Shown piece after piece: positions 21,421-44,532 of a stretch of 64,000 nucleotides of DNA. Position 1 is the stretch's first letter. Each line of letters opens with the position of its first letter. Where the stretch lies: contig NZ_JAQUVZ010000001.1 in the NCBI RefSeq assembly GCF_028693135.1, positions 124,001-188,000 on the forward strand. The letters are read 5' to 3'. The notes beneath the pieces were generated by a model, which worked only from the letters and a program-made list of their open reading frames with translations, was not told the origin of the DNA and did not search any database. A program made the translations under genes and the position numbers. Source of the stretch: Methanosarcina sp. (GTDB taxonomy: Archaea; Halobacteriota; Methanosarcinia; Methanosarcinales; Methanosarcinaceae).

Positions 21421-21429
21421 GATTTTCAC

Positions 21430-22021: not shown

Positions 22022-22312
22022 TTAGGGCACGAACCCTGTAAAAATAATTTCTAAGCATGCAAAGAGGAAATTGGTAACAAAACATATCAACAGTGGGTAT
22101 ATCCCCATATCAATAGAATCTATTGAAAAAGAGTCTTCTTTTAGGGAAACCAGAAGCATTTCCTTTATCCCCAGAAGAACGATTAAGCCCAGAACCGTTA
22201 TCCGGTAGAATTCAGGAACTCCAAAGTCCGTGTAAACAAAACAGATGCCTGAACCAGGAAAATTATTTCCCAGAACAAGATCTTCTGTACCCAGCATCAG
22301 CATTGAAAGCAC
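22022..22312 (-). CDS. Small membrane protein, GVPE...MGIxPLL family, copy 1
   Basis: A 96-residue protein with a GTG start at 22312 behind a strong GGGGGA ribosome site. It has two hydrophobic segments, at about 40-57 and 70-93, separated by a short acidic loop. The segment FGVPE (about 30-34), the charged KEM after the first helix, and MGIYPLL before the second helix recur in order in the minus-strand gene at 44278, so both belong to one family. No catalytic motif is visible and I know no function. Its place between the DUF354 operon and ugd suggests a role in the cell envelope. Confidence 0.65.
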   Translation of the reverse strand: MLSMLMLGTEDLVLGNNFPGSGICFVYTDFGVPEFYRITVLGLIVLLGIKEMLLVSLKEDSFSIDSIDMGIYPLLICFVTNFLFACLEIIFTGFVP

Positions 22313-22393
22313 TATAAATCCCCCAACTTGTCAGTAACGGTATTGTCATAACATGTACTAAATTCTAACTATAGAAACCTATAAACTGTCAAA

Positions 22394-22403
22394 CTATATA
22401 AAT
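22394..22403 (+). promoter_or_regulatory. TATA box of the ugd gene
   Basis: CTATATAAAT matches the archaeal TATA element. The expected start, about 25 bases downstream, would leave a leader of about 130 nt before the ATG at 22554. Confidence 0.5.
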
Positions 22404-22553
22404 ATTCAAACAAGTACGAAAAGAATAAGTATAGGAAAACCTGAAAACAGGAAATTTCAAAGATCAGGAATTGTAAAGAGATACAACCTATCAAAAAATA
22501 AATAAGACTTGGGATTGATTACCTTTTCAATTCCCGAGAAAGAGGTTCAAATT

Positions 22554-23837
22554 ATGAAAGTTTCGGTTATAGGTTCAGGGTATGTGGGTTCAGTCACTGC
22601 AGCCTGTTTTGCAGAGGCAGGACACGAAATCATCTGTGTAGATATTGACAGGAAAAAAACGGAGCAGATAAACGCAGGCATTTCCCCCATCTATGAAGAG
22701 GGGCTTGGAGAGCTTTTGCAAAAATATGCAGGAAAAAAACTCATCGCAACTACTGATTATGAATTTGCGGTCAATGAAACGGATATTTCCTTTATCTGTG
22801 TTGGAACACCTTCGGCAGAAGATGGGAGTATAGACCTTTCAATAGTCAGGGCAGCAGCAGCAAGTATCGGCGCAGCCCTGGCAAAGAAAGAAGGCTACCA
22901 TGTGGTGGTAGTAAAAAGCACCGTCGTGCCCGAAACGACAGAAAAATTTGTCCTCCCGGTCCTTGAAGAAGCATCAGGAAAGACTGCCGGAAAAGATTTT
23001 GGGGTTGCAATGAATCCAGAGTTCCTCAGGGAAGGAAAGGCAGTCCAGGATTTCATGCACCCTGACAAAATAGTTGTTGGGGCGATCGACAGAAGATCAG
23101 GAGATCTGGTTTCCGACCTCTACAGGACCTTTGAATGTGAGATCACACGTACAAGTCCGGCAACCGCGGAAATGATCAAATATACAAATAACTCCCTACT
23201 TGCAACCAAGATCTCCTTCGCCAATGAGATAGGAAATATTTGCAAAAAGCTGGGCATCGATACCTATGAGGTCATGGAAGCCGTAGGAAAGGACTTCAGG
23301 ATTTCCCCAAAGTTTTTAAATTCCGGGGCAGGCTTTGGTGGGTCATGTTTCCCAAAGGACGTAAAAGCACTGATAGGAAAAGCAAAAGCAATAGGATACT
23401 CTCCTGTACTCCTTGAGTCCGTGATAGCTGTAAATGAAAAGCAACCCCTTCTTATGACTGAAATTCTCCAGAGGAAAATAGGGGACCCTGCAGGTAAAAA
23501 GATCGCAGTCCTTGGACTTGCCTTCAAAAATGAAACAGACGACATAAGAGAATCCAGAGCAATTCCTGTGATTGCTGAACTCCTCAGGCTTGGAGCCAGA
23601 GTTTCGGCTTATGACCCTATGGCAACAGAGAACATGAAGCGCGTCTTTCCCACAATCGAATACCTTGATAAGGCCTCAGATACGCTTAAAGATGCAGATG
23701 CCTGTCTGGTGATGACTGAATGGGATGAGTTCAGGAATCTCGATTCCGAATTCCAGGACATGAAAGGAAAGATAATCATTGACGGAAGACGGGTAATTAA
23801 AGCGAAAAAGGTGGATTATGAGGGACTCTGCTGGTGA
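22554..23837 (+). CDS. ugd: UDP-glucose 6-dehydrogenase
   Basis: Oxidises UDP-glucose twice with NAD to UDP-glucuronate in the cytoplasm. The 427-residue length is normal. The N-terminal Rossmann motif is GSGYVGS (residues 7-13). VGTPSAEDGSID, VVVKSTVVPETTE, MNPEFLREG and the catalytic loop GFGGSCFPKD with Cys265 are all intact, and AVLGLAFKNETDDIRES marks the C-terminal UDP-binding domain. The ATG at 22554 follows AGAGGTT; the frame extends upstream to 22509 without a ribosome site. It faces galU, which makes its substrate, in a tail-to-tail arrangement. UDP-glucuronate is the acidic donor expected for methanochondroitin. Confidence 0.95.
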   Translation: MKVSVIGSGYVGSVTAACFAEAGHEIICVDIDRKKTEQINAGISPIYEEGLGELLQKYAGKKLIATTDYEFAVNETDISFICVGTPSAEDGSIDLSIVRAAAASIGAALAKKEGYHVVVVKSTVVPETTEKFVLPVLEEASGKTAGKDFGVAMNPEFLREGKAVQDFMHPDKIVVGAIDRRSGDLVSDLYRTFECEITRTSPATAEMIKYTNNSLLATKISFANEIGNICKKLGIDTYEVMEAVGKDFRISPKFLNSGAGFGGSCFPKDVKALIGKAKAIGYSPVLLESVIAVNEKQPLLMTEILQRKIGDPAGKKIAVLGLAFKNETDDIRESRAIPVIAELLRLGARVSAYDPMATENMKRVFPTIEYLDKASDTLKDADACLVMTEWDEFRNLDSEFQDMKGKIIIDGRRVIKAKKVDYEGLCW

Positions 23838-23848
23838 AAATCAGCAGA
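23827..23848 (+). terminator. Hairpin overlapping the ugd stop codon
   Basis: TCTGCTG (23827-23833) pairs with CAGCAGA (23842-23848) around an 8-base loop that contains the stop codon. It probably separates the convergent ugd and galU transcripts. No long T-run follows. Confidence 0.5.
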
Positions 23849-23968
23849 AACTACCTCCCCCATTTATAATCCATTTATTAGATAGTCATTTGGCTAGATA
23901 TTCTTTAATCTCACTTACTTGATACTTCTTTTATTACCATATTTTTTTATAGTCTTTACTATGAATAA

Positions 23969-24868
23969 TCACCTTTGTTCGTTCTGTTCCGCAGGAGCCT
24001 TTTCAACTGCCATGATTTCCCACAGATACTCAAGTACATCATCTCTAAGGTTTTCATTCTTAAGGGCAAAGTCCACTATGGACTTTACGTACCCAAGCCG
24101 ATCTCCGGTGTCAAACCTTTTTCCTTTGAACCTGCAAGCATAGATCATCTGAGACCTGTTCAGAAGCCTGATGCCATCAGTGAGCTGGATCTCACTCCCA
24201 ACACCGGCTCCAGCTTCCTTTATGCAGTCAAAAATTTCAGGAGTGAAGACATAGCGTCCGATTGCCCCGATATTGGAAGGAGCGGCTTCAGGAGAGGGTT
24301 TTTCCACTATATCCTCAAGCACGTACAGGGAATCATCAATAGGCTTGCCCTTTATAATCCCGTAGCTACTCAGTTTTTCGTAAGGCACCTCTTCGACTGC
24401 GATTGTTGACCTTCCGTATTTTTCAAAGTTCTCGATAAGCTGGGCAGTGCAAGGCTTATCATTAACGATAATGTCATCTCCGAGAAGCACCGCAAAAGGT
24501 TCATTTCCGATATGTTTCTCTGCCCTGAGGACTGCATCTCCCAGGCCATTGGGCTCTTTCTGGCGGATGTAGTGGATATCCACAAGAGAAGAGATGTCCC
24601 TCACCAGCTTCAGCATGTCTGTCTGGTGTTTTTTCGCAAGGTGCATCTCCAGTTCGGGAGAGTCGTCGAAGTAATCTTCAATAGCCCTTTTGCCCCTCCC
24701 AGTGATGATGATTATGTCCTCGATCCCCGAGGCTATAGCCTCCTCCACGACGTACTGGATGACGGGCGTGTCGATGATCGGGAGCATTTCCTTTGGCATG
24801 GACTTGGTGGCAGGTAGGAAACGGGTCCCGAGACCTGCAGCCGGGATGACTGCTTTCTTTACTTTCAA
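23969..24868 (-). CDS. galU: UTP-glucose-1-phosphate uridylyltransferase
   Basis: Makes UDP-glucose from glucose-1-phosphate and UTP. This 299-residue protein has the canonical pyrophosphorylase signature AAGLGTRFLPATKSMPKE at residues 10-27. It also has IIITGRGKRAIEDYFD, GLGDAVLRAEKHIG, VLLGDDI, SSYGIIKGK, VEKPSPEAAPSN, IGRYVFTPEIF, EIQLTDGIR and FKGKRFDTGDRLGY. The TTG at 24868 gives the standard MKVKKAVIPAAG start and lies 8 bases behind GGAG; the upstream GTG at 24877 overlaps that site. It converges with ugd, so both steps to UDP-glucuronate are side by side. Confidence 0.95.
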   Translation of the reverse strand: MKVKKAVIPAAGLGTRFLPATKSMPKEMLPIIDTPVIQYVVEEAIASGIEDIIIITGRGKRAIEDYFDDSPELEMHLAKKHQTDMLKLVRDISSLVDIHYIRQKEPNGLGDAVLRAEKHIGNEPFAVLLGDDIIVNDKPCTAQLIENFEKYGRSTIAVEEVPYEKLSSYGIIKGKPIDDSLYVLEDIVEKPSPEAAPSNIGAIGRYVFTPEIFDCIKEAGAGVGSEIQLTDGIRLLNRSQMIYACRFKGKRFDTGDRLGYVKSIVDFALKNENLRDDVLEYLWEIMAVEKAPAEQNEQR

Positions 24869-25003
24869 GATTAACACTCCGGATAAAGGAAAAATTTCAT
24901 TTGAGCAATTTCAGATATGTGTTGTTTACTTTACACTGCAATTATCATTAATTTTTCCCTAGAGAGATTAGGGCTCGTCATAAAATCATTTGCTAAGAAT
25001 TGA
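24869..25003. promoter_or_regulatory. Upstream region of galU
   Basis: AT-rich DNA before the galU start, expected to hold its minus-strand promoter. I could not single out one TATA box. Confidence 0.3.
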
Positions 25004-25177
25004 AGGAAAATATTTGAGGAACAAATAAAAGTTGCGCTGGCCACTCCGCCGCAAGCAAAGGGTATGTTCGCGCCACAGCTCCAAATTTCATTAAAGGAAA
25101 CAATAGCACTATACGGTTTAGTTCGAGCAGAAGTCAATAAACAAAAAAATGGAAGTGATAAATCATATTATCATTAA
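25004..25177 (+). pseudogene. Coding-like remnant between galU and the epimerase gene
   Basis: An open frame of 57 codons from just after a TGA (25001) to a TAA (25175-25177) reads with normal protein composition, including QIKVALATPPQAKGMF and LQISLKETIALYGLVRAEVN. There is no start codon in good context at its beginning; the first ATG lies inside the frame. It may be the tail of a lost gene. No family was recognised. Confidence 0.35.
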
Positions 25178-25239
25178 CGATTACCGGGGAAGTTTTCCAT
25201 CCTCACAGCAAGCTAGCGGGGCATTCGACTGAAATAAAG

Positions 25240-25250
25240 ATATTTATAAG
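25240..25250 (+). promoter_or_regulatory. TATA box of the epimerase gene
   Basis: ATATTTATAAG fits the archaeal TATA element. The expected start lies at about 25268-25272, giving a leader of only a few bases before the ATG at 25278. Confidence 0.5.
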
Positions 25251-25277
25251 TTAAAGAGAGATTATTGGAAGATTTCC

Positions 25278-26228
25278 ATGCCCGTAAAAAATAAAATACT
25301 TGTAACTGGCGGAGCCGGCTTCATAGGGAGCAATCTTGTAGACCGCCTTTTGGAAAAAGGAAACCAGGTAATCATTTTTGACAACCTGAGTTCCGGCAAG
25401 ATGGAATTTATAGAACACCATCTTGAAAACCCTGATTTCACCCTGATGAAAGGAGACCTGCTCGACACTGAAGCAATTGAAAGCGCCTGCAAAGGAATCG
25501 ACTTCGTCTTCCATGTGGCTGCAAATCCGGACGTCAAGCTGGGGGCTTCAGATACGAAAGTCCATTTCGACCAGAACATCCTGGCCACCTACAACCTGCT
25601 GGAAGCAATGAGGAAAACCGGCACCAGGAAAATAGCCTTCACCTCAACCTCCACAGTCTACGGGGAAGCGAGCATTATACCTACTCCTGAGGACTATGGA
25701 CCACTTATCCCTATCTCCCTTTATGGCGCCTCCAAACTCGCCTGTGAGGCCCTGATAACTTCATATACTCACACCTTTGATATGCAGGCCTGGATTTTCA
25801 GGTTCGCAAACATCGTCGGCCCCCGCAGCACTCATGGAATTACCGTTGATTTCATAAGGAAGCTGAAGGAAAATCCCTGCAGACTCGAGATTCTTGGGGA
25901 CGGAAAGCAGGAAAAATCCTACCTCCATATATCGGAATGTGTTCAAGCGATCCTTTTTGCAATAGAAAAAAGCAAAGAAGAAGTAAATATTTTCAATATA
26001 GGATCCGAAGACACTATCAGTGCCACAGGGATAGGAAAAGTCGTTGCAGAAGAGATGGGGCTTTCTGACGTAGAGTTTACATATACCGGAGGAAGCAGAG
26101 GCTGGAAAGGCGATGTACCGAGAATGAGACTCGGGATTGAGAAATTAAAAGCCATGGGATGGAGACCCGCCTATACCTCGGAGAAAAGCGTCAGAGATAC
26201 TGTAAGGACACTGCTTTCCGGAAACTGA
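25278..26228 (+). CDS. UDP-sugar 4-epimerase (GalE-like SDR)
   Basis: A 316-residue extended short-chain dehydrogenase of the nucleotide-sugar epimerase/dehydratase group. It shows GGAGFIGSNL (11-20) for NAD, DNLSSG (35-40), the TSTSTVYGE segment near 122-130 and the catalytic pair Tyr149/Lys153 in LYGASK. RFANIVGPRSTHGI and GDGKQEKSYLHISECVQAI complete the family pattern. It most likely interconverts UDP-glucose with UDP-galactose or the N-acetylated pair, which would supply the galactosamine donor for methanochondroitin; the exact substrate cannot be read from the sequence. The start is supported by a TATA box about 35 bases upstream. Confidence 0.88.
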   Translation: MPVKNKILVTGGAGFIGSNLVDRLLEKGNQVIIFDNLSSGKMEFIEHHLENPDFTLMKGDLLDTEAIESACKGIDFVFHVAANPDVKLGASDTKVHFDQNILATYNLLEAMRKTGTRKIAFTSTSTVYGEASIIPTPEDYGPLIPISLYGASKLACEALITSYTHTFDMQAWIFRFANIVGPRSTHGITVDFIRKLKENPCRLEILGDGKQEKSYLHISECVQAILFAIEKSKEEVNIFNIGSEDTISATGIGKVVAEEMGLSDVEFTYTGGSRGWKGDVPRMRLGIEKLKAMGWRPAYTSEKSVRDTVRTLLSGN

Positions 26229-26732
26229 GAATTTAGAAGAGGAAGCGTAAACCCTATTGGTCTTCAACCAGGAAGTATAAACATCAACTTCCCTCTAATT
26301 TTTTTCGTTAATATTAAACATTATATGCATCAATTAGACATTGTATTGGTCACTCGAAAACCGGAAAGCCCGTTAACTCTTTAGATTTGGAGGGCAATCC
26401 ACGTCAACTACCCCTGAGCTAAACTCAGGGGTTTCCTGCTGAGGGATTATGAACCCCCAGTATATACACTTAAGCCTTCAATTTCAAAGGACACATAGCT
26501 AATTTTCCGATTCTCGTACGCCTTAATTCCTTAGTCCGAGTCTGTAACCGCAATTGAGGGGAGAAAGTTACAGATTCCGAGAAAATAAGATCTAAAGGGT
26601 TCAATTCGAAAAAAGAGCCAGATACTCAAAATGTAAACGCCGTTAACAACAGTGTTTAAATACATTGGAAGTTAACATTGTAGAAAGGGGAGGACTTAAA
26701 AGTTCGCAACTAAGTATTAAGGAGTATGTGAT
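26229..26732. other. Spacer with a solo IS200/IS605-type end
   Basis: It contains the hairpin listed at 26405-26445 and otherwise no gene. A TTTAAATA element near 26655 and AAGGAG before 26733 belong to the next gene. Confidence 0.45.
26405..26445. mobile_element. Solo IS200/IS605-type terminal hairpin
   Basis: TCAACTAC is followed by a perfect 8-bp stem CCCCTGAG (26411-26418), loop CTAAA and CTCAGGGG (26424-26431), then TTTCCTGC. This order (AACTACC, stem, CTAAA, stem, TTTCxTGC) is the usual end structure recognised by Y1 transposases. No transposase gene is near, so it is a leftover end. Confidence 0.65.
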
Positions 26733-27917
26733 ATGAAAAAGAATGACTGTGCGCTCGTTCTGGGGGGATACGTCAACGGATATTCGATAATTAAGGAGTT
26801 GCACGAGAAAAAAATAGAAGAAATCATTCTTTTCGGATGTTCCAGAGAACTTGCCTCATACAGTAATAAAATAAAGAAGTTTGTGCTTATTGATGGAACC
26901 CCGGATAGCCTTCGCAGAGAGATTGAAAAGCTCCATCAGGAGTATGAAAAAATAATTATATTTCCCACTAATGACCTGCAGCTTGAAAATTTGAATACCA
27001 TTTATACTGAAATCCACTCATTCTGTTTTTTGCCCTTTAACCATGAAAACCTGCTTGCCTGCCTGGACAAGTATGTCCAGTATTCTTACTGTGAAAAGCT
27101 TGGTGTCCCATATCCTAAAACAATACTTCTCCAGAAAAAAGAAGATCTGGAAAATATCAAAACTCTCCAGTTTCCAGTTCTCCTGAAGCCAAACAAAAGG
27201 GAAGACCTGAAAATAAAGATCTTCAGAAACCTGAAGATAGGTAAGCCTGGAGATCTAAAGAAATTAAATAAGAAAATCGAAAAATATCTGGATTCTGGAA
27301 TCAAGTTTCTGGCTTCGGAAATTATTCCGGGGGATGGGGACTGTATATATGCTTATGTAGGGTACAGAGACAAGAAAGGACGGACCCTGAACGAATGGAC
27401 CGGAAAAAAATTATCTCAGTATCCTGATAATTTCGGAGTATTTTCAGCTGCTTCAAATGAGGCACCTGAAGAAGTGCTCTTACAGGGTAGAACCCTCCTG
27501 AATGGTATGGATATTCAGGGAATCGCACAGCCGGAGTTTAAATACGATTACCGTGACAAAAAATATAAGCTTATGGAGATAAACCTTCGTTCAATGATGT
27601 GGCATAGGGTAGGTAACCTATCCGGAGTTAATCTGCAGTACACCCAGTACCTGGACGCTCTGGGAAAAAAAGTAAGCCCCCAGGTGCAGATGAAAAACAA
27701 AAAGATCCATTACCTGTATATGAAACATGAAATAAAAAACCTGATAATGCGAAGGAACTATATCAAGACTTTTTTAAGGAATGTTACAGAATCAGATGAA
27801 ACCCATTTTGCTATCTATGATAAAAGAGATATAAAGCCGTTTTTAAAGGATAGCACGGATATGGCGAAAATAGATGTAAAAAAATTCCTGCGAGCACTGG
27901 GAATAACAGACTTATGA
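26733..27917 (+). CDS. ATP-grasp protein, possible carboxylate-amine ligase
   Basis: A 394-residue ATP-grasp-like protein. The N-terminal Rossmann-like part starts LVLGGYVNGYSIIKEL. The ATP-binding core includes FPVLLKPNKRED, LASEIIPGDGDCIYAYVGY and the metal-binding segment YKLMEINLRSMMWHRVGN with Glu and Asn. Such enzymes join a carboxylate to an amine or other nucleophile through an acyl-phosphate. In polysaccharide loci they often attach an amino acid to a sugar. AAGGAG at 26719-26724 supports the ATG. It stands alone between the nucleotide-sugar genes and a convergent flippase. The function is inferred from family and context only. Confidence 0.7.
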   Translation: MKKNDCALVLGGYVNGYSIIKELHEKKIEEIILFGCSRELASYSNKIKKFVLIDGTPDSLRREIEKLHQEYEKIIIFPTNDLQLENLNTIYTEIHSFCFLPFNHENLLACLDKYVQYSYCEKLGVPYPKTILLQKKEDLENIKTLQFPVLLKPNKREDLKIKIFRNLKIGKPGDLKKLNKKIEKYLDSGIKFLASEIIPGDGDCIYAYVGYRDKKGRTLNEWTGKKLSQYPDNFGVFSAASNEAPEEVLLQGRTLLNGMDIQGIAQPEFKYDYRDKKYKLMEINLRSMMWHRVGNLSGVNLQYTQYLDALGKKVSPQVQMKNKKIHYLYMKHEIKNLIMRRNYIKTFLRNVTESDETHFAIYDKRDIKPFLKDSTDMAKIDVKKFLRALGITDL

Positions 27918-27984
27918 TTTATTCAAAAGCTGAGACTAAACAGCTAATCTAGATTAATTCAATACCGAGAGAATACATGCCTGA

Positions 27985-29457
27985 TTATTTGCTGTTCGGG
28001 CTCACCTTTGCCCTGAGCAAATATCTTTTTATTAAAGACATTTCATGGTCAGTAAAACCGCCCGCCAGCAACATCACAATCACATAAATAACCGTGCCTG
28101 CCCCCATTGCTTCGAAAAGCTCAAGTATACCTGAGATAGCCAGGCTGGAAACAAAGAAATACATAGCCATTGATGCCAAAACACTTTTTGCAATGTCCAT
28201 AAAATAAAAATCAAGTTTAAAATGTTTAAGGGACATTCTCATGCAAAGTACAGCCATCATAAAGTAGGCGACAAGAGTTGAAATAGCAGCCCCGATAATG
28301 CCGACTGAGGGTATGAGAATGAGATTTATTAGCACGTTTGAGACAGCGGCAAGGATATTAATATAGGTAGTAGACTTCGTATCTTTTATAAGGAACATTG
28401 TGTTGACAAAAATCTGGAATATTCCTGCCAGAAGCCCGGCAAAAGCAATGATAGGGATTACAAACCAGCCAGAAACAAAATCCTGGGTAGTAAGAACCCC
28501 AAGTAAAGGCTTCGCAAGGGCTGAAAGTCCAAAAACTGAGGGGATGGAGATAATAAGGAAATACCTGAGAGAATGCGACATGTAGATTCTTACCTCATCC
28601 ATCCTATTCTCATCAAACAGCTTTGAAAGCTCAGGAAGGAGAATCAGCTGAAGAGGGCTTACAAAAAGCTGGATAAGGTTCCCAATTGAACACGCCGCAG
28701 AATAGACACCAACACTGCCGAGACCAAGAAAAAAAGCAATCATATACCTGTCACTTGATTCCGTAACCCATCTAATAAGGGCGTTTGGAGTCAACGGCAG
28801 AGAAAACTTCAGGTACTCTCTGATGTAAGTAAACCGCGGGATAACAAACCCGATCTGTGAAATTATGGTAATAAGGGCAATTAAAAAAATCAGACCCTGA
28901 ATCATTAACGTGGCGGTTATTACTCCAAGAAGCCCGTACCCCATTTTAAGGAAAACCAGTATAAATAACAGTTTTCCAAAGGTTTCAACAAGAGTAAAGT
29001 AAGAGAATTTCTTAATTTGTCTGAAAATCCTGAAATAAAAAAGGGATACAGACTCTATTACGTTCAGAAGAATTAAAAGGGAACCTGCCTGAACAAAATA
29101 GGTTGCTTCCGGGTCATTAAAACCGAAAGTTGCAAGTGGTTCTGCAAATATGTATAACAGGAATGAAGCAAGAAAACCTGATACTGTAACAAAAAAAAGG
29201 ATCGAATATACTGCTTCCCTTATTATTTTCTTATCGGTTTCGGAAGATAAAAATCTGACGAAACTCATCGAAAGCCCCATCAGTGCAAGAGAAGAGATTA
29301 AAGATACTGTAATATTGATCTGTGCCCAGAGTCCGTAATCATATGCTCCAAGGGTTTTTGTGATAATAGGAAGTAAAAAGAAGGTACTAAGGCTTGTAAG
29401 TATCTGAACCATCCCGATAAAGCCAACGTCCCTTGCAAATTTTTGATATGACATCAT
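27985..29457 (-). CDS. Polysaccharide flippase (MOP superfamily), second of three
   Basis: A 490-residue protein with about 14 membrane helices of the oligosaccharide flippase type. FARDVGFIGMVQILTSLSTF, LLPIITKTLGAYDYGLWAQI and LSLFYFRIFRQIKKFSYF are typical. It is more distant from the other two flippases here, so it may carry a different glycan. AAGGTGGT precedes a double ATG at 29457/29454. It converges with the ATP-grasp gene. Confidence 0.87.
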   Translation of the reverse strand: MMSYQKFARDVGFIGMVQILTSLSTFFLLPIITKTLGAYDYGLWAQINITVSLISSLALMGLSMSFVRFLSSETDKKIIREAVYSILFFVTVSGFLASFLLYIFAEPLATFGFNDPEATYFVQAGSLLILLNVIESVSLFYFRIFRQIKKFSYFTLVETFGKLLFILVFLKMGYGLLGVITATLMIQGLIFLIALITIISQIGFVIPRFTYIREYLKFSLPLTPNALIRWVTESSDRYMIAFFLGLGSVGVYSAACSIGNLIQLFVSPLQLILLPELSKLFDENRMDEVRIYMSHSLRYFLIISIPSVFGLSALAKPLLGVLTTQDFVSGWFVIPIIAFAGLLAGIFQIFVNTMFLIKDTKSTTYINILAAVSNVLINLILIPSVGIIGAAISTLVAYFMMAVLCMRMSLKHFKLDFYFMDIAKSVLASMAMYFFVSSLAISGILELFEAMGAGTVIYVIVMLLAGGFTDHEMSLIKRYLLRAKVSPNSK

Positions 29458-30124
29458 ACCACCTTAAAAAGAACTGTCTCTTTTCCGTTTATAATTAAAG
29501 GAGCTTATGAAGTAGTCGCGCGAAAATCTATTTCGTAGCCTCGATTCAGATCACTAATTATGCATAACATATAAATCTTTTTGAAAACAATTGATTATCC
29601 GGCACAGGCGTTGGCATATATATTGATTGTTTTTCGAGAATATGGGGGGATTGAACAATAATCAGTAAATGCACTTTTAATTGCAAGAGACAGAGTCCAA
29701 ATATTTTAAATTTATTCTCAGCGTTAACTTTATTCTTATAATAAGGGCACAATAATTTGAATTCATAGAAACACCTTTAATGAGGGAATAATTCTGAATT
29801 CGAGAACGGGGAATCTAAAGATATTTTCGCCGTTAACTTTTAGGTTATGTGAATAACGTTCTCTTCTGGAGAAATCGGGCTCCTTCTAACCCCATGAAGA
29901 GATTTCTACAAAGGATAAAAGCCTTTGTATTTAAATAAATTTTGAGAATAGTTTAAGAGTAGTTCATAATGAAGGCAAGCAAAACTTTCAAAAAGAGAAT
30001 TATTAACAAGTATAAAATGATCGAATGAAAATTAAAGAAGAACGTACAGAGAGTAAGAATGGGACATATAAAAATAGTCATAATAAGTAAACTTTAAGAC
30101 AGAAACATGAGAGGATATAAAAAG
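29458..30124. other. AT-rich spacer
   Basis: No supported gene. It holds the promoter side of the flippase gene and A-rich DNA. Confidence 0.4.
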
Positions 30125-30196
30125 AAGGAGGATATTCCGAAAACCGGATTGGGAAATTAACATTTCCTGCTGTCCAGAATTTCGGAGTACCTCCTT
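30125..30196 (-). terminator. Three-part hairpin after the giant beta-helix gene
   Basis: AAGGAGG (30125-30131) and TCCGAAA (30136-30142) pair with TTTCGGA (30180-30186) and CCTCCTT (30190-30196). Inside, GGAAAT/ATTTCC (30152-30167) forms a second stem. On the minus strand the structure is followed by CTTTTTAT, so it fits a terminator for the 30309 gene. It could also be part of a small RNA. Confidence 0.65.
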
Positions 30197-30223
30197 AAAG
30201 GGCGTCTAAACTTTTAGATTTAC

Positions 30224-35595: not shown

Positions 35596-36801
35596 ATGAG
35601 AGTACTGGAAGTATGTCAGGAGTTTCCTAACAGGTATTACCCTCAACTTGGAACATTTATAAAGCAGAGCATAGATTCAATCGCAGACCAGGGAGTAGAC
35701 GTGACGGTTATTTCTCCAAAAGCTTTCGTGCTTCCTTTTTCTGCCTTTCCGTACCATAATTTTTCTAAATTGCCCGGAATTGAGCACACCGAAAAATATG
35801 ACCTTCACTATCCGCGTTATATCTATGCTATTCCCAAAAAGTATTTTTACCCCATAACCGGCGTTTCGTATGCCCATTTCGTTACCAGGTACGCCATAAA
35901 AAACATAAAACCAGAACCTGACCTGATCCATGCACATTTTTCATATCCTGATGGATACGGGATGATGAAGCTTGCAAAGAAATGGAAAGTTCCCCTGGTA
36001 ATAAGTGCTCTTGGGACGATCGAAAGAAAGATTGCCTATGAAGGGACCTATACTTCAAGGCAGATTATAGAAGCCATGAATTTTGCAGATAAAGTCCTGT
36101 CTGTCAGTGAAGACCTCAAAGTCCATATCGTGAATCTCGGGATAGACGAAAGTAAAGTACATGTGGTCCCTAACGGCGTTGATACGGAGATATTCAAGCC
36201 TGCAGGAAAAGGACAGGCAAGAGCTATTTTACACCTGCCTCAGGAAAAGAAAATTGTCCTGTTTATAGGTGCCCTGAGAAAAATAAAAGGCGTGGATTAC
36301 CTTATTGAAGCTGCAAAAAGTTTTGTGGATAAGAACACGGACCTCTATATGGTAGGCAGGGACGACGGGCTTAGAAAAAGTCTGGAAAAAAGGGCAGAAG
36401 AACTCAAAATTGCCGGCTCCATCAAATTTACGGGACCTGTAAACCATGAGGATATTCCCCTCTGGATTTCAGCATCAGATATGCTGGTACTGCCTTCTCT
36501 CTCAGAGGGAAGACCAAATGTAGTGCTTGAAGCTCTGTCCTGTGAAGTCCCTGTCGTAGCAACTGATGTTGGAGGGATTCCGGAACTGATGGTTGAGGGA
36601 GAAACAGGCTATCTGGTTCCTGCAAAAAACCCTGCCGAACTGTCAGAAAAGATTAATAAGTTACTTGAAGACGAAAGCAGAAGAGAAATGATGGGAAAAT
36701 TCGGGCGCAAAAGTATAATCCAGCGAGGACTCACCTGGGAAGCCCATGCAAAGAAGACTGTAGACATATACTCAGAGCTTCTATCGAAGCCCTCAAAATA
36801 A
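35596..36801 (+). CDS. Family 4 glycosyltransferase
   Basis: A 401-residue GT4 enzyme with MRVLVCQEFPN-like start (MRVLEVCQEFPNRYYPQLG) and HAHFSYPDGYGMMKLAK. The donor half contains NGVDTEIFKPAGKGQAR, LFIGALRKIKGVDYLIEA, MVGRDDGLRK, FTGPVNHEDIPLWISASD and LPSLSEGRPNVVLEALSCEVP. The last carries the glutamate-rich donor loop. The ATG at 35596 gives the family start; the frame extends to 35557 without support. It differs in the donor loop from the two other GT4 proteins (SEGRPN instead of NSKIGLS), so it probably uses a different sugar. A hairpin terminator follows at 36815. Confidence 0.88.
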   Translation: MRVLEVCQEFPNRYYPQLGTFIKQSIDSIADQGVDVTVISPKAFVLPFSAFPYHNFSKLPGIEHTEKYDLHYPRYIYAIPKKYFYPITGVSYAHFVTRYAIKNIKPEPDLIHAHFSYPDGYGMMKLAKKWKVPLVISALGTIERKIAYEGTYTSRQIIEAMNFADKVLSVSEDLKVHIVNLGIDESKVHVVPNGVDTEIFKPAGKGQARAILHLPQEKKIVLFIGALRKIKGVDYLIEAAKSFVDKNTDLYMVGRDDGLRKSLEKRAEELKIAGSIKFTGPVNHEDIPLWISASDMLVLPSLSEGRPNVVLEALSCEVPVVATDVGGIPELMVEGETGYLVPAKNPAELSEKINKLLEDESRREMMGKFGRKSIIQRGLTWEAHAKKTVDIYSELLSKPSK

Positions 36802-36814
36802 ACCTGTGGGAAAA

Positions 36815-36830
36815 AGCAGAGAACTCTGCT
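36815..36830 (+). terminator. Hairpin terminator after the GT4 gene
   Basis: AGCAGAG (36815-36821) pairs with CTCTGCT (36824-36830) around an AA loop, followed by TTTA. It lies 14 bases after the stop codon. Confidence 0.6.
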
Positions 36831-36959
36831 TTACCAGAACTCTGCTTCATCGATAAATTCATTTTACAGGTAGAAAAGGTTCTAAGTTGCTCTTTTGATC
36901 CACCGAAATTATACCCAGGCTGTCTTAGCTTGATCTCCTGAAAATCTCATACTATTTTT

Positions 36960-37152
36960 ACAATCTTTCAGCTTTTACAATATTTCAGCTTTAACAATCT
37001 TTCAGCTTTAACAATCTTTCAGCTTTAACAATCTTTCAGCTTTTACAATCTTTCAGCTTTTACAATCTTTCAGCTTTTACAATCTTTCAGCTTTAACATC
37101 TTAGCTTTTACAATCTTTCAGCTTTAACATCTTAGCTTTTACAATCTTTCAG
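36960..37152. repeat. 17-bp tandem array, about 12 units
   Basis: The main unit is ACAATCTTTCAGCTTT(T/A). Two shortened units (ACATCTTAGCTTTT) and one with ACAATATTTC interrupt it. It fills the gap between two convergent genes and contains no spacers. Its core matches that of the array at 30224. Confidence 0.9.
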
Positions 37153-37196
37153 ATAATGGAACTTTCTTATTTCAAAAAAAGCTAAAATACAGGCAT

Positions 37197-39218
37197 TTAA
37201 ATGCCTGTAAGTGTGTTGTTAAGATTAGAACTTCTAAGAGGTTTGCTTAACGCCGAAACGGGAGCAAAGATGTCCGCTGCCGGGTTTGAATAGATTTTAT
37301 TTGCGTTTGTAAGATTGGCCTCAAGATCAATTACGTTTTCTGGAGTATTCCTAAAGAAATAATTGTCAGATTCCTTAGTGCTACTTTCATCGCTGCCAAA
37401 GTACAAACCGCTCCTTAGAAACTCCTGAGTCCTGAATACTACATAGCCTTTGTAACTGGATAATTCGTTTACATTATCGATTCGGTAATTATCGTAAATT
37501 GAGAGGTTCATTCCCGAAGAGTCCTCAGGAATTGACGGGAGATAAAAGAACCTTGTAGTAAAGTAATCGGAATAAACGGCAGAACCCTCAGGAATGTACT
37601 TATAAACATGTTCGAAACCACTCAGTTCATTAGCAGTGAAATATTCATGCTTTGCACTCTGGCCAAGCATGTCTGAATCCGAAATGCTATAGACTGACGA
37701 GATGAAGACAAAAGTGGAGAACAGCAGAATTATAAGGGCCACTGTATTGAACTTTTTAGGGCCATATTTATCCACATAGTTCCAGAATATATAAATTCCA
37801 TATCCCATTGCGAAAGCCATGAAGGGACTGACGAAAAGCATAAACCGGTCAACCCTGAACAGGACCTTAAACTGCCAGATAGTATTGAGAGGGTTGGGGA
37901 CATAGAAAAGAAGGGTTAACAGAGCAAATAACCCGAAAACTGAAGCATAGTTTTTCCTGTAGTTTTTCAGAAGAAAGCCTATTCCGATAAGGGCAAAAAA
38001 TAAAAAGACAGATTTATCCAGAAGGCCTAGCAGACCTGTCAAGCTTTCCGCAAGTATGTCAGAACCTCCGGCAGTTAAAACTATAGTGTCCCAGAAATGG
38101 CTCTGCAAACGAGGAGTCAACCCTCTCTGCATAAACAGATAGGCTGCAAAGAACCAGTAAGCAGTATAAGTAACATTTAACAGTAGAAAGAAAGGTTTAC
38201 TGATATAGTTTTCAGACCCTATAACATACTCCGAGGCAAAGAGTATGACGAGTAATAACACGAACTGGAGTATGGAAACGTTATGGACCAGGGTCAAGAA
38301 AACCAAAACAATTACTGAAAGAGCTTTAAAAGAGAATTTATCCTCTTTGAAGTTGACACTGTAAACCAGATATAGCAGCAGAATAAACGCTACGAATGCC
38401 ATTGTGCGTGTGATAACGTTTGCACTGTAATATAGCACAATATAACTTGAAGAATAAAGCAGGCAGGAGAGCAGAGAGATTTGTCTGTTGTGTGTAATGT
38501 GATTAAATAGATAGTAAAGAAAAATTACTGTTACTGCATAAATTGGCGCGGTTATCAGGAAAAGTGAAGTTTTTGCGCTGAGGTTCAGAATTACGGCAGC
38601 TTCTGCAACAAGTATATGATATAAGGGGAAAAATGCATAGTCACTTAAGGCAGTTGAAATGGTCTGTCCAGTTACTGCAGTGAATTCCGAAAGGAAAATA
38701 TGAGGCAGAATGTCAGTGGTCCCGAAGTAAAAATCATAATTGAAGGTAACACTGTAAGTAAGGTTTACCATGATTAAAAAAGATTCCAGAAGGATAAGGG
38801 ACGGCCTGACCTCTTTAGAGAAAATTTGCAGGAAAACAGAAAGGTACATCCCCAGAATAAATACGAAATAGTACCAGGGCCGGTCTCCCTGAGATAGCAG
38901 AAGCATGACTATTGAACCAGAATAGAATATGCCAAACAGGTACGTAAGGATCTTTATGTTTATAGACGGGAAACTGTCTATATCATGCAGACTTACATCT
39001 TTTTTGTAAATGTACAATACAAAGAGGCAGGAGAGTACTGCAGGAATTCCTGTAAACAATCCACGAATTGCATAACCTGGCTTTTCGGTTGCAAACATCC
39101 ATACAAAAGTGAATATAACGGCGAGAATTATTGCTATTGGGAACAGGAAGGAAATTACCTTCATTAAACGGCTATTACCCGTGTACGTGAGTCCCGCCTC
39201 TTCGCTCAATCCGAACAT
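37197..39218 (-). CDS. Large GT-C-like membrane protein
   Basis: A 673-residue protein with about 13-14 hydrophobic segments up to residue 510 and a soluble C-terminal region of about 160 residues. The first long outer loop carries DFYFGTTDILPHIFLSEF followed by DYAFFPLYHIL, which matches the layout of the 12277 protein (GYDAYFHAGMAK then YYPLAHIF). It is therefore probably a lipid-sugar-dependent GT-C glycosyltransferase or polymer-assembly protein working outside the membrane. GGAGAT precedes the ATG at 39218. The next genes upstream are two GT2 enzymes that could make its lipid-sugar donor. Confidence 0.7.
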   Translation of the reverse strand: MFGLSEEAGLTYTGNSRLMKVISFLFPIAIILAVIFTFVWMFATEKPGYAIRGLFTGIPAVLSCLFVLYIYKKDVSLHDIDSFPSINIKILTYLFGIFYSGSIVMLLLSQGDRPWYYFVFILGMYLSVFLQIFSKEVRPSLILLESFLIMVNLTYSVTFNYDFYFGTTDILPHIFLSEFTAVTGQTISTALSDYAFFPLYHILVAEAAVILNLSAKTSLFLITAPIYAVTVIFLYYLFNHITHNRQISLLSCLLYSSSYIVLYYSANVITRTMAFVAFILLLYLVYSVNFKEDKFSFKALSVIVLVFLTLVHNVSILQFVLLLVILFASEYVIGSENYISKPFFLLLNVTYTAYWFFAAYLFMQRGLTPRLQSHFWDTIVLTAGGSDILAESLTGLLGLLDKSVFLFFALIGIGFLLKNYRKNYASVFGLFALLTLLFYVPNPLNTIWQFKVLFRVDRFMLFVSPFMAFAMGYGIYIFWNYVDKYGPKKFNTVALIILLFSTFVFISSVYSISDSDMLGQSAKHEYFTANELSGFEHVYKYIPEGSAVYSDYFTTRFFYLPSIPEDSSGMNLSIYDNYRIDNVNELSSYKGYVVFRTQEFLRSGLYFGSDESSTKESDNYFFRNTPENVIDLEANLTNANKIYSNPAADIFAPVSALSKPLRSSNLNNTLTGI

Positions 39219-39481
39219 ACTATCTCCATAACCTTAAACGATCACAACTTTATGTATTAAATTTGAAATAAAGGATTCAGAATTGACTCCTAACAGGATT
39301 ACAGGATTGGACCTGAAATAAAAGGTTTAGATTTTTTTGTTTGAAACCAATAGGATTTACAGAGAGGTCTATATTGGTTAAGAATTTTTTGCTCCAACGT
39401 ACTTCAAGCCAGGTTCAATATCTCGAACCATTTATTACATTTGCGTACCGGCAACTATGGCTACGGTAACCGGATAAATTA
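39219..39481. other. Spacer between membrane protein and GT2 gene
   Basis: AT-rich, no supported gene. Likely a promoter region for the 37197 gene. Confidence 0.35.
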
Positions 39482-40501
39482 TTAAGCATTATTCCCCGAA
39501 AGAGACCTGGTTTTTGAAAGGAGAAGGGAATTTGCAAAACTGTACAAAAAACCCAGCCCATAAGTAACGTGCTGCACAGGGATCACGAACAGCGCGATGA
39601 GGCCGTAATTTGATTTCATCTTATATATTACCTGAATAGAGGTAACAAAGACCAGAACGAAATATAAGGACATAAGTATTAGTAAAACGATTATCGGAGC
39701 TGGATATACAAGAGAAACAATAAGTGAAAATACCGCAAAAAGGATGGCAATCGAAGGCAAAAAGGCATACCAGCGAACGAATTCGCCGTGTTTTTTGAAC
39801 AGCTCACCCATCCACATACCATACTTGAACATTCGTACGGAAAATGACTTAAGGGTCCCCCTTCTGTGGTGAAGCACTTTTGCTTCTGGAATATACAGGA
39901 ATTTATGCCCGATTCTGCTTATTCTGTAATTGAGGTCCCCATCCTGGCCCACTACAAACCGCTCGTCAAAATACCCGGCTTCCCGGATTGTATTTTTTTT
40001 GTACATCGCATTGCAATTCGGGAGGGAACTGACATAATGTTTCTTTGTGGAATTTTTAGATTGGGCCGAACCCCCGGAACCCAGAAAGGTTTCCTGGGCA
40101 TGCCCTACAACCCTGCCAAACACAGGATCAGTGTCAAATATTAAGTTCGGGCCGCCAACACATGCCACATCTTCCGGGGCATTCATCATTTCACTGACAA
40201 GTGTTTTCAACCACCTGGGATCGACCTGACAGTCCCCATCCGTAAATGCGACAAGATCACCCCGGGCGTTTTCCACCCCGAGGTTCCTTGCTGCTGCAAC
40301 ATTTTTTCGTTCATTAAGAAGGAGCCTGACAGGGTATTTCTGTACGAGGTCCTGTGTTTTATCAGTGGACATGCCGTCGACGATAATAATCTCATAAGAA
40401 TCCTGAGGATAATCGAGATGAAGAAGAGACTCAATGCATTCTTCAATGAATTTTTCTTCGTTACGTATACCTACTACAACCGAAACAAAAGGATATTCCA
40501 T
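39482..40501 (-). CDS. Family 2 glycosyltransferase with C-terminal membrane region
   Basis: A 339-residue processive-type GT2 protein. The catalytic domain shows SVVVGIRNEEKFIEECIES at the start, IIIVDGMSTDKT for nucleotide binding, FTDGDCQVDPRWL for the metal, and HHRRGTLKSFSVRMFKYG before the membrane part. Three to four hydrophobic segments follow (about 240-325). It likely extends a membrane-bound glycan. It lies 21 bases after the 40523 gene in the same direction, so they form an operon. Confidence 0.86.
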   Translation of the reverse strand: MEYPFVSVVVGIRNEEKFIEECIESLLHLDYPQDSYEIIIVDGMSTDKTQDLVQKYPVRLLLNERKNVAAARNLGVENARGDLVAFTDGDCQVDPRWLKTLVSEMMNAPEDVACVGGPNLIFDTDPVFGRVVGHAQETFLGSGGSAQSKNSTKKHYVSSLPNCNAMYKKNTIREAGYFDERFVVGQDGDLNYRISRIGHKFLYIPEAKVLHHRRGTLKSFSVRMFKYGMWMGELFKKHGEFVRWYAFLPSIAILFAVFSLIVSLVYPAPIIVLLILMSLYFVLVFVTSIQVIYKMKSNYGLIALFVIPVQHVTYGLGFLYSFANSLLLSKTRSLSGNNA

Positions 40502-40522
40502 AAAATGACTCCATTTTTACAG

Positions 40523-41422
40523 TTATTGTTTTCGAATCTGTTCATTTAGAAATATCATTCTTGAAATGGAATGCAGTATGATTCCTGTAAATATCATAAA
40601 AGCCCCTATAATTGTCAGCATTACCATAAGGAGCGTTGGCCCGAAACGCAGGTATCCTCCCAGAATGTAATCCTGCAAAAATGTCAGTCCCATAAGAAAG
40701 CCTATAGAGGTCATAATCAGGCCAGGAACGGCAAAATAGTACAGGGGGCGCCTGTACTCCATATCTTTAAGGATCTGAAACAGGACCCTGGGACCATGTA
40801 TGAAAGGATGTTCACTGGAACAATCCTCAATATCATACCTGCAGTGAATTTCGACTTCCGTAAATTTCAGTTTATGGTCTCTTGCCTGAATAAGAATTTC
40901 GGAACCTGCAGACATATCAGTGCCGTTCAGATTTATATGATCAATAGCTTTTCTGCCATATGCCCGGAAACCACTCTGGGAATCAGTGACATTGAGACCG
41001 CCTGCTATGTAAGTTGCAACATCAAGTACTTTCATTCCAAACTTACGGTAAATAGGGACATTTTTTCCGTTGCCGTTGACGAACCTTGAGCCAATAACAA
41101 GGTCAAATCCCTGTTTTAGAGGCTCAAGAAGCTGGGGGATTTCGGAAGGATCGTGCTGCCCATCGGAATCGATTATGACCATAGCACCTGCGCCGAGGTT
41201 GCGGGCGGTTTCAAAACAATTTCGAAGGGCTGCTCCATATCCTCTGTTAATTTCGTGGCGGACTACGTAGGCACCAAGGGATTCAGCGATATCGACAGTA
41301 TCGTCTGTACTCCCATCGTCCACGACCACCACCCTGTCTACGTATTTTCTGCAGCCTTTGATAACCTCTGCAATGGAATGGGCTTCGTTATACGCAGGCA
41401 TGGCTGCAATAGTAATGGTCAT
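40523..41422 (-). CDS. Polyprenyl-phosphate sugar transferase (DPM1-like GT2)
   Basis: A 299-residue protein of the dolichyl-phosphate mannose/glucose synthase group. It shows AAMPAYNEAHSIAEVI, VVVDDGSTDDT, VIIDSDGQHDPSEI, GSRFVNGNGKNVP, DSQSGFRAYGRKAID and CRYDIEDCSSEHP. Two C-terminal hydrophobic helices (about 228-250 and 262-288) anchor it. It should charge a polyprenyl phosphate with a sugar, the donor form needed by the GT-C-like proteins. It resembles the C-terminal domain of the 9089 protein. It is followed closely by the 39482 GT2 gene. Confidence 0.87.
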   Translation of the reverse strand: MTITIAAMPAYNEAHSIAEVIKGCRKYVDRVVVVDDGSTDDTVDIAESLGAYVVRHEINRGYGAALRNCFETARNLGAGAMVIIDSDGQHDPSEIPQLLEPLKQGFDLVIGSRFVNGNGKNVPIYRKFGMKVLDVATYIAGGLNVTDSQSGFRAYGRKAIDHINLNGTDMSAGSEILIQARDHKLKFTEVEIHCRYDIEDCSSEHPFIHGPRVLFQILKDMEYRRPLYYFAVPGLIMTSIGFLMGLTFLQDYILGGYLRFGPTLLMVMLTIIGAFMIFTGIILHSISRMIFLNEQIRKQ

Positions 41423-42360
41423 GTGCTATCATCTACCTCTTTGATGAAAAGAATCAAAAATCTTCATGAAGCGCCTTTCTATAGAGAAAACGGCGAGATT
41501 TTCAAATACATTGAATACATTTTTCAGAGTCATCGCTCCATAAATTTTAAAGGGTTTCTATGGATCATATGTAACATAGATCTACAGCGCATCATTTGGG
41601 GGTTTATTGTGTTCCTTTTAGGGAAAGGAAAGATGCCCTGCAAGTAAGTCATAGTTTTGAATCAGACGTGTATTTGTTTTAAGATATGAACTATATAAAC
41701 ATTTAGGCACGAAAAATAATTTAGCAGTCCGTCCGATAACGAAAAATAAATCCGCCCACTTAAAAATCCCGTTCGCCAGGAAAAGAGCTAAAAAAGCTCC
41801 GATATAAATAATAAGAATCACAGCAGGAAAAGAAAAATTTATACAGATTTCGAAATCTAGAGATTTTCTTGTGAGACACATTAACAGAAAGAAAAAGAAT
41901 AAGCTGATTCAGAAAACCTTTTCAAAAAAAGTGCAGAATATTAATCTGAGCTATAAAATTCCTCAAGGAGGGCATAAAGAAGAAATACATTTTTATAATA
42001 ACATGCAGAGAAAGGGAAAGATATTTTATACAAAAGAGTAATTTGAGTAGGTTGAGTTAAAAGGACTATTGAAAAAAAAGAGAGATGATGAAGAGACATA
42101 AGCTTTACTAAATGGAAAAAAAGCCTATTTTACTAAATAGAAAAAAAGGCTCCGGAATTGAAAGTAGGGCCAATCCCCAACCTTCCAGTTCTCAACTCTT
42201 CGCAGCAGAAGGTTATAAAAGACCGGCCAGAAAAACAGCCGGAAAGGTTTTTCTGAAAACTCCCTCAAGAGAGATGTGAAATAGACAGATTAACCTTGGA
42301 TACAAAAAGGATAAAACTGGAAAGCCAGAAAAAAATTAAAATCATATTATGAGGAGTCAT
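41423..42360. other. Spacer upstream of DUF1616
   Basis: Nearly 940 bp. An 87-codon minus-strand frame at 41618-41881 has one hydrophobic stretch but no ribosome site and is not supported. Toward 42170-42230 the DNA is less AT-rich, without a recognisable gene. Confidence 0.45.
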
Positions 42361-43248
42361 ATGGCCGGGAACCAGAAGTTTCCATCTGACCTGCTGTTTG
42401 TGGTAGGCCTTGTAGTTCTTACGGATATTTTTGTACTGATTCCTGTACTCAGTGAGAGTTTTATTCGTACAGTCCTTGGCTTGCCACTGGTATTATTTCT
42501 ACCAGGGTATGCTCTTATAGCCATGCTATTTCCAACAAAGACCGGGCTTGAGGGAATTGAAAGGGCGGCACTTTCTGTTGGAATAAGTGTTGCAATTGTA
42601 CCTCTTATAGGACTTGTACTTAGTAATACATCATTCGGGATCCGGGAAGGGCCTCTACTTGTAAGCCTCTCTGTGTTTATTATCCTTGCGTGCGCAGCAG
42701 CATATGTCCGCAGGATGCAGCTTCCAGAAGACAAAACCTTTGGGATCTCTTTGAAGGCTTCTGCCAGTTCCCTGTTAGTTGAGGTTCTGGGAAAAACCGA
42801 GTCGTCAACGGAAAAGACGCTAAGGATTTTTCTGGCACTTTCCATTCTGGCCTTAGTAGGAACTGTAGCTTATGTAGCCATTGTTCCCCACGAACAGGAG
42901 CCATTTACAGAATTCTATATCCTCGGACCTGAGGGAACAGCTGATAACTATACTACAGAGTATGTGCAGGGAGAAAGTGGAACAGTCATTATAGGGATCG
43001 CAAACCATGAAAACAGAGCCGTAAACTATACAATGGATGTCAGGCTCGAAAACAAATCCCTGCAGTTGCCTGAAAACCTGAAACATATAAAACTTGAAGA
43101 CAACACAACCCTGGAAGAGCCCCTTGAGATAACCCCCTCTTTTGAAGGAGAGAATCTGGAGCTTGAGTTCCTGCTTTTCAACGAGCCTGAAGAGGATGTG
43201 CCTTACAGAGACCTGCGCCTCTGGATAAACGTTACCAGGGAGGCCTGA
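42361..43248 (+). CDS. DUF1616 membrane protein
   Basis: A 295-residue protein of the DUF1616 family of methanogens. It has four N-terminal hydrophobic segments (about 8-125) including VLGLPLVLFLPGYALIAMLFP, then a fifth helix (about 160-180). The outer domain is Glu-rich with several Asn-x-Ser/Thr sites and carries TEFYILGPEGTADNYTTEY and GTVIIGIANHENRAVNYTM. The ATG at 42361 is chosen because GAGGA sits 6 bases upstream; the upstream ATG at 42349 overlaps that site. The next gene begins 2 bases after its stop, so the pair is an operon. Biochemical function is unknown. Confidence 0.88.
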   Translation: MAGNQKFPSDLLFVVGLVVLTDIFVLIPVLSESFIRTVLGLPLVLFLPGYALIAMLFPTKTGLEGIERAALSVGISVAIVPLIGLVLSNTSFGIREGPLLVSLSVFIILACAAAYVRRMQLPEDKTFGISLKASASSLLVEVLGKTESSTEKTLRIFLALSILALVGTVAYVAIVPHEQEPFTEFYILGPEGTADNYTTEYVQGESGTVIIGIANHENRAVNYTMDVRLENKSLQLPENLKHIKLEDNTTLEEPLEITPSFEGENLELEFLLFNEPEEDVPYRDLRLWINVTREA

Positions 43249-43250
43249 AG

Positions 43251-44117
43251 ATGGAAACATATGAGAATAAGGAGATGCAAAACCCTGAACATATAGAGAT
43301 ACAAACCCCAGAGTACCGGGAAATGCATATTCCTGACAATCGGGCGACGTCCCAGCCGGAATTAAGAAACGCGGGACTTTACCTGATCATACCGATTGTA
43401 GCCATTGCCTTTGCGGAATTTATGATATTTTCCGGAAGGGTTATAGCAGCTATGGAGGTACATGCAGCCGTCCTTCTTGGGCTTTCCCTTTCCATGTTGT
43501 ATATAAAAAACGAGGATATCCAGAAGACTTACCAGGCCCTTATCCTGCTACCAATCCTGAGACTTGTAAACCTTTCAATGCCGGCATTTTATGAAGAAAC
43601 CCTTTACTCGTTTGTCTTTATCTACGGGCTCCTTACAATTCCAGTAACCATTGCACTCACCAACCAGGGGTTTACCCGAGAACAGCTTGGAGTAACCTTC
43701 AAAAAGATAGCCCTCTATATTCCGCTCGCGATAATTATGGGGCTCCTGCTTGCAGTAGGGGAATACCTCATAATAAAGACAAACTACCTCATCCCCGACC
43801 TTTCAATTCCAAACCTTCTGACGCTTACTTTTCTGATGGTCTTTTTAGTAGGTCTTATTGAAGAGCTAATCTTCAGGTCTGTTCTGCAGAACCGGCTCGA
43901 AGTGCTTCTCGGGAGCCGGGGAGGACTGATAATCACAAGCGTCCTGTTCGGATTAATGCATTCTGGGTATGGAAACATAGGGGAAGTATTCTACGCCTTA
44001 TTAGTAGGTTTTATCATAGGATATATGTTCTACAAAACCCGAAGCCTCCCTCTGGTCGCAATGATCCACGGCTTCATAAACGTCTTCCTCTTTGGAGTCC
44101 TCCCCCATCTTTTCTAA
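43251..44117 (+). CDS. CPBP family intramembrane metalloprotease
   Basis: A 288-residue protein with about eight helices and the three motifs of the Abi/CPBP protease family. These are EExxxR as Glu204-Glu205...Arg209 (GLIEELIFR), FGLMHSG with His237, and HGFINVF with His273 and Asn277. It can cleave or process membrane substrates such as prenylated or membrane-tethered surface proteins. The N-terminus (1-40) is a hydrophilic Glu/Pro-rich extension with repeats such as EMQNPEHIEIQTPEYREM. GGAGG within the end of the DUF1616 gene serves as ribosome site, and the two genes are 2 bases apart, so they are probably coupled. Confidence 0.9.
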   Translation: METYENKEMQNPEHIEIQTPEYREMHIPDNRATSQPELRNAGLYLIIPIVAIAFAEFMIFSGRVIAAMEVHAAVLLGLSLSMLYIKNEDIQKTYQALILLPILRLVNLSMPAFYEETLYSFVFIYGLLTIPVTIALTNQGFTREQLGVTFKKIALYIPLAIIMGLLLAVGEYLIIKTNYLIPDLSIPNLLTLTFLMVFLVGLIEELIFRSVLQNRLEVLLGSRGGLIITSVLFGLMHSGYGNIGEVFYALLVGFIIGYMFYKTRSLPLVAMIHGFINVFLFGVLPHLF

Positions 44118-44277
44118 ATTCATTTTTTTAAAAAAATATGAAAGTAAACCGGCAGAAAAAAAAGCAGGAAAACTTTTTTAAAAAATGGATAAGGAAAATT
44201 TCTTTAATGAGGCTTTTAAAAAAAAGATTGTTTCCTCGGGGCTGTTGTATTCAAGGCTTAAAAGGGCTTTCCAGACA

Positions 44278-44532
44278 TTAAAAGAGATCTACAAGCTTGT
44301 AAAGAATAACTGCACCGAAAGCAAACAGAAGTGGAAGAATTCCCATATTCAGAGACGTTTTCACAGAATCTCCCCAGTTCTTTGACAGAGGAAGGAAGTC
44401 TCGAAGAAGTAACAGTAAAAGCAAAGTTGCTACGGCTACTGATGCACCTTCAGGAACCCCTAGTGTAGTCATCATTGTGAGCGCACCCGAAGAAGCTGAA
44501 GTTGATGAAATTAAACTTGTAAGCGTAGTCAA
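44278..44532 (-). CDS. Small membrane protein, GVPE...MGIxPLL family, copy 2
   Basis: A protein of about 84 residues if the TTG at 44532 is used (AGAGGAG just upstream), or 65 if the ATG at 44475 is used (GGGTG upstream). It carries LGVPEGASVAV, a leucine-rich helix, RDF after it, and LNMGILPLLFAF before a second helix. These match in order the 22022 protein (FGVPE, KEM, MGIYPLL). Conservation between two distant minus-strand loci argues that both are real genes although small. It lies tail-to-tail with the DUF1616/CPBP operon. Function unknown. Confidence 0.6.
   Translation of the reverse strand: MTTLTSLISSTSASSGALTMMTTLGVPEGASVAVATLLLLLLLRDFLPLSKNWGDSVKTSLNMGILPLLFAFGAVILYKLVDLF

Follow-up and report, generated by a model that had tools for sequence, protein, structure and literature searches.

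A 64,000-nucleotide stretch of Methanosarcina sp. DNA, hereafter the window, carries two small open reading frames (ORFs) that had been predicted to encode related membrane proteins. This locus raises two questions: whether these frames belong to a real protein family, and which membrane machinery such proteins might serve.

Two homologous small membrane proteins

Both ORFs are present on the minus strand at the predicted positions (Table 1), and their products are homologous, with 31% identity over 68 aligned residues (E = 4e-6, single comparison); the family profile described below finds copy 1 at E = 8.5e-19. Used as a query, each copy retrieves the other and three more from the same genome, which thus holds five family copies, including two further ones on the contig of the window and one on contig C42. 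The GTG start of copy 1 at 22312 is preceded by GGGGA at a normal distance. The start of copy 2 is less certain because GAGGAG lies just 2 nt upstream of the TTG at 44532; its frame stays open as far as a TTG at 44640. The genomic contexts are as first described, with copy 1 divergent from ugd and copy 2 tail-to-tail with a CPBP gene, 160 bp from the CPBP stop. No Rfam match was found within positions 21300-45500 of the window. Between the GT2 and DUF1616 genes, the minus strand has an 87-aa ORF that includes a hydrophobic stretch (41618-41881).

Table 1 Features of the window discussed in the text
Feature	Coordinates	Strand	Remarks
Glycan-type DUF354 gene, on the 3' side of copy 1	20347..21429	-	PF04007, E 2.3e-25
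Family copy 1	22022..22312	-	96 aa, initiated at GTG; subfamily linked to ugd; CPBP absent within 5 kb
ugd (UDP-glucose dehydrogenase family), divergent from copy 1	22509..23837	+	PF03721, PF00984, PF03720
DUF1616 membrane protein	42349..43248	+	PF07760, E 6.2e-94; 2 bp upstream of CPBP start
CPBP/Rce1-like glutamic intramembrane protease, proposed family partner	43251..44117	+	PF02517, E 1e-19
Convergent intergenic region, CPBP stop to copy 2 end	44118..44277	.	160 bp
Family copy 2	44278..44532	-	84 aa; TTG start as originally proposed
Secreted protein with C-terminal TM anchor, in a surface-protein cluster recurring beside the family	55377..56165	+	Clusters with surface proteins; no family over cut-off
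TIGR04279-domain surface protein, same cluster as 55377..56165	56397..57833	+	TIGR04279, E 6.9e-116

The order of elements common to both copies is G-[VIL]-P-E, a helix, a basic-acidic pair, MGI[YL]PLL and a second helix. The pair is KE in copy 1 and RD in copy 2, and the basic residue therefore comes first; the original prediction had the order of elements right but gave this pair the reverse polarity, acidic before basic. In the family alignment, a serine/threonine (S/T)-rich N-terminal stretch precedes a transmembrane (TM) helix whose last residues are KE; next come a loop resembling ILSASxxWNxxLxxS and a second helix that contains PLLxxFxAIVxFK. Methanosarcina relatives carry G-[LVI]-P-[EQ]-[YF]-G after the S/T-rich stretch. 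This GLPEYG element fades in distant members (GVAEIG, SAPQLG), whereas the KE pair, the loop and the second helix are kept. Basic residues are almost confined to the segment joining the helices and to a single place within the second one, a placement that weakly favors a topology with both protein ends outside the cell. Threonine runs occur in the N-terminal tail of phylum-level members (L285:7663-8025, L257:6920-7171 and L258:872-1135), and their composition suggests a glycosylated or linker-like tail. An AF2 model of copy 2 comprises two helices, residues 28-46 and 55-83 (mean pLDDT 68.5, pTM 0.37), and an AlphaFold model of a consensus-like relative reaches a mean pLDDT of 77.7 and a pTM of 0.52; the helices score in the eighties, and the packing between them is not reliable. 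A fold comparison gave no match at E ≤ 0.001, a result that carries little weight for a two-helix model.

An archaeal family under purifying selection

The two ORFs belong to a genuine family of membrane proteins with two helices, which has no name as yet and extends across methane-producing and methane-eating archaea. Copy 2 has matches (E ≤ 0.01) in 84 of 111 genomes of its taxonomic family; a 40-row profile finds members in 154 of 237 genomes of the class, representing 28 of 39 genera, and a 56-row profile in 105 of 392 genomes sampled from the phylum. Named records with a member include Methanosarcina, Methanolobus, Methanohalophilus, Methanococcoides, Methanomethylovorans, Methanoperedens, ANME-2 and Methanophagales. 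All named matches are archaeal, save Methanosarcina-like copies on two metagenome-assembled contigs labeled as bacteria (L233, Syntrophomonadaceae bacterium; L244, Clostridia bacterium), which are probably mis-binned archaeal contigs.

Both copies are under purifying selection, with a median pairwise dN/dS of 0.25 among 15 orthologs of copy 1 and 0.22 among 25 orthologs of copy 2; about half of all differences among orthologs fall at third codon positions. Further homologs and purifying selection were the two points on which the original prediction of an unnamed family hinged, and both came out in its favor. At curated cut-offs, no Pfam, NCBIfam or PDB sequence family covers the members; relative to the libraries searched, the family is new. 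In the records seen, annotated members are labeled as hypothetical proteins. Among the abstracts and passages available on DUF1616, methanochondroitin clusters, archaeosortase, the small proteome, CPBP/CAAX proteins, TIGR04279 and exosortase, we found no description of the family. A Ribo-seq study of M. mazei covers, in its available text, proteins of 70 aa or less (PMC11456600) and for that reason would not list family members.

Family copies are found mostly on chromosomes. They also occur on six archaeal plasmids (NZ_CP009519, NZ_CP009523, NZ_CP009525, NZ_CP009527, NZ_CP009529 and NC_014254), and in the two Methanosarcina plasmids that we examined they lie near polysaccharide genes and integrases. 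A viral or phage origin was considered and rejected because viral contigs and phage records gave no family match.

Pairing with one CPBP subfamily

The protease encoded opposite copy 2 is a CPBP protein by its PF02517 score (71 bits against a curated cut-off of 22.4). Its catalytic motifs EExxxR, FxxxH and HxxxN are intact: among 35 relatives, E204, E205 and R209 are invariant, and F233, H237, H273 and N277 are conserved at 90% or more, within the motifs FGxMHS and HGxxN. The DUF1616 and CPBP genes probably form an operon.

We compared the occurrence of the family with that of this CPBP subfamily across the 237 class genomes, using a CPBP profile threshold (E ≤ 1e-30) fixed before the result was seen. 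Both were present in 146 genomes and both absent from 76, with only 15 discordant genomes (8 with the family only and 7 with CPBP only). The corresponding phi coefficient of 0.86 exceeds those for DUF1616 (0.57), TIGR04279 (0.36) and PF00148, an unrelated nitrogenase-superfamily control (0.24); because the 237 genomes are related, no valid P value attaches to the co-occurrence. Within single genera, the split was 20 both, 6 neither and 1 CPBP only among the 27 genomes of g11, and 19 both, 12 neither and 1 CPBP only among the 32 genomes of g25. Copy numbers of the two also correlate, with a Spearman coefficient of 0.89 over the 237 genomes and 0.93 in g11, and are equal in 93 of the 146 genomes with both; agreement is poor in Methanosarcina itself (0.40). 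A mirror-tree correlation (r = 0.48 over 50 pairs) was not separable from shared ancestry and was dropped as evidence.

Gene neighborhoods were examined at 81 hand-picked, non-random loci (80 and the window) containing 100 family ORFs, a few of which are fragments or alternative frames. Of the 100 members, 62 have a CPBP gene within 5 kb, 53 a surface-protein gene, 39 a DUF1616 gene and 34 a GT2 gene. The nearest CPBP gene is tail-to-tail with the family gene in 57 of these 62 cases, on the same strand in four and divergent in one; 46 of 50 directly adjacent pairs are convergent. Among the 38 members without a CPBP gene in this range, 21 have flanks cut short by a contig end, and the other 17 have full 5-kb flanks. 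The convergent layout is present in five taxonomic families, and in families f3, f4 and f5 the 3' ends overlap in 9 of 14 convergent pairs, one of which involves a CPBP fragment. A partly overlapping set of 64 named loci gave 41 convergent cases among 46 nearest CPBP genes. Outside the class, a CPBP match stands beside the family gene in six of eight loci examined, three convergent and three divergent, and the C42 copy of the Methanosarcina sp. genome follows DUF1616 and CPBP on one strand. We regard the pairing of the family with one CPBP subfamily as well supported.

Surface-protein genes are the other recurrent company. Secreted neighbors with TIGR04279 and PGF-pre-PGF domains, and with C-terminal helices that have basic ends, recur beside the family, and a second TIGR04279 match lies at C58:180595-181569. 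Annotated genes on the Methanohalobium evestigatum plasmid run in the order TIGR04279 protein, hypothetical protein (the family member), type II CAAX endopeptidase and DUF1616. Exosortase (PF09721) and EpsI-like (DUF3485) genes occur within 5 kb of 4 of the 100 members from the class and of 3 of the 8 examined outside it, in several families. In f7 genomes, a secreted family of ~300 aa with a WLPCCxGG end and further cysteines recurs beside the family gene (L132:1519-2448, L133:9877-10818, L138:8326-9291 and L139:2716-3603; one member has no Pfam match).

Proposed role and known systems

The family is probably a dedicated partner of the CPBP protease because it travels with that protease and with surface-protein genes; that the partnership serves archaeal surface-protein maturation is a reading to which we give about even weight. 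The original prediction that these proteins regulate a membrane complex remains an inference, and its target has shifted: glycosyltransferases in general are not favored by the neighborhoods (GT2, 34 of 100), and the candidate is CPBP (phi 0.86; 57 of 62 tail-to-tail). As a partner, the small protein would use its conserved loop and second helix to bind CPBP within the membrane, with its S/T-rich tail outside the cell, and, in the manner of BofA with SpoIVFB, would gate the protease or present substrates to it. Copies without an adjacent CPBP gene, copy 1 included, would need to act on a CPBP encoded elsewhere or to have changed role. A bolder version, which we hold only tentatively, makes the family an unrecognized core sorting component throughout the phylum, a small membrane gate that acts with CPBP, and in some lineages with exosortase-EpsI, to process surface proteins, its tail-to-tail genes yielding overlapping, co-regulated transcripts.

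The strongest competing explanation, itself rather unlikely, is that the small protein is a dedicated CPBP substrate, either cut in or near its first helix, with release of a short peptide or of the whole S/T-rich tail, or removed to control its level. Roughly one-to-one copy numbers (310 family against 274 CPBP matches) and tandem family duplicates beside a single CPBP gene would fit a substrate, S2P proteases are described as cutting small membrane proteins in the available text of PMC10470546, and the first half of the protein (S/T-rich stretch, GLPEYG, helix and basic residue) resembles a tripartite sorting tag. However, it is the GLPEYG region that distant relatives lose and the KE pair, loop and second helix that they keep, and the family profile scored below 10 bits, in both directions, against the C-terminal tails of neighboring surface proteins. 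Homology to sorting tags was rejected on this comparison, for which reason we claim no resemblance to PGF- or PEF-CTERM. The layout of PGF-, PEF- and PEFG-CTERM tags also differs, in that a second helix follows the motif in the family and the motif is lost in distant members; among 56 members, no Pfam or NCBIfam sorting-tag model scored over its cut-off, the one PEFG-CTERM match having E = 0.03. We place the choice of partner over substrate near an even balance, favoring partner because the family is tightly paired with a CPBP whose catalytic motifs are intact, because conservation centers on the loop and second helix, and because a conserved cleavage-like motif is lacking.

Copy 1 points in another direction. 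Its flanks, a DUF354 gene on the 3' side and a divergent ugd on the 5' side, are kept in 14 of 14 Methanosarcina orthologs examined, and this fixed position, together with plasmid copies among polysaccharide genes and GT2 genes within 5 kb of about a third of members, would suit a small protein that serves the surface-glycan machinery in general and has CPBP only as a frequent neighbor. Against this improbable alternative, CPBP is the more frequent neighbor, and the small protein co-occurs with it far more closely than with any other family tested. The copy 1 subfamily may nonetheless have taken on another role, and the CPBP model is weakest there. CPBP proteins include bacteriocin-immunity proteins, and convergent overlapping pairs and plasmid-borne copies exist, but a small membrane toxin or bacteriocin-like peptide neutralized by CPBP is very improbable given the old, largely vertical distribution over many genera, the purifying selection, the absence of matches in viral contigs and phage records, and neighbors that are surface-protein and glycan genes.

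A dedicated CPBP partner would bear on a protease group whose roles in archaea are scarcely known, according to the available text of PMC9263693. A small protein that tracks one CPBP subfamily offers a direct handle on CPBP function in the genetically tractable Methanosarcina, and archaeal surface-protein sorting may gain a further component in this family.

Several known systems invite comparison. The myxosortase MrtX is a CPBP glutamic protease used in surface-protein sorting, and the available account of such proteases describes no small two-helix partner (PMC11980579). The window CPBP has sub-cut-off similarity to models of myxosortase and CPBP sorting proteases, and the surface-protein tails compared with the family showed no cysteine tag of the MYXO-CTERM type. 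Fusions of exosortase with CAAX proteases were noted in 2006 (PMC1569441, available text), and seven loci have exosortase and EpsI genes near the family gene; most members, however, lack a nearby exosortase (4 of 100 with one in the class sample). In Staphylococcus lipoprotein acylation by LnsAB, a CPBP-fold protein likewise requires a second, separately encoded protein, but LnsB is described as a protein without the catalytic residues of CPBP, and LnsA as an NlpC/P60 enzyme rather than a small membrane protein (PMC7387801, available text). The nearest model for how the family could work is BofA of Bacillus subtilis, a TM segment of which is described as occupying the active-site cleft of SpoIVFB (PMC9042235, available text). 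SpoIVFB belongs to the S2P metalloproteases rather than to the CPBP proteins, and the likeness is one of description: BofA, itself a small membrane protein, is devoted to a single intramembrane protease, as we propose that the family is to CPBP.
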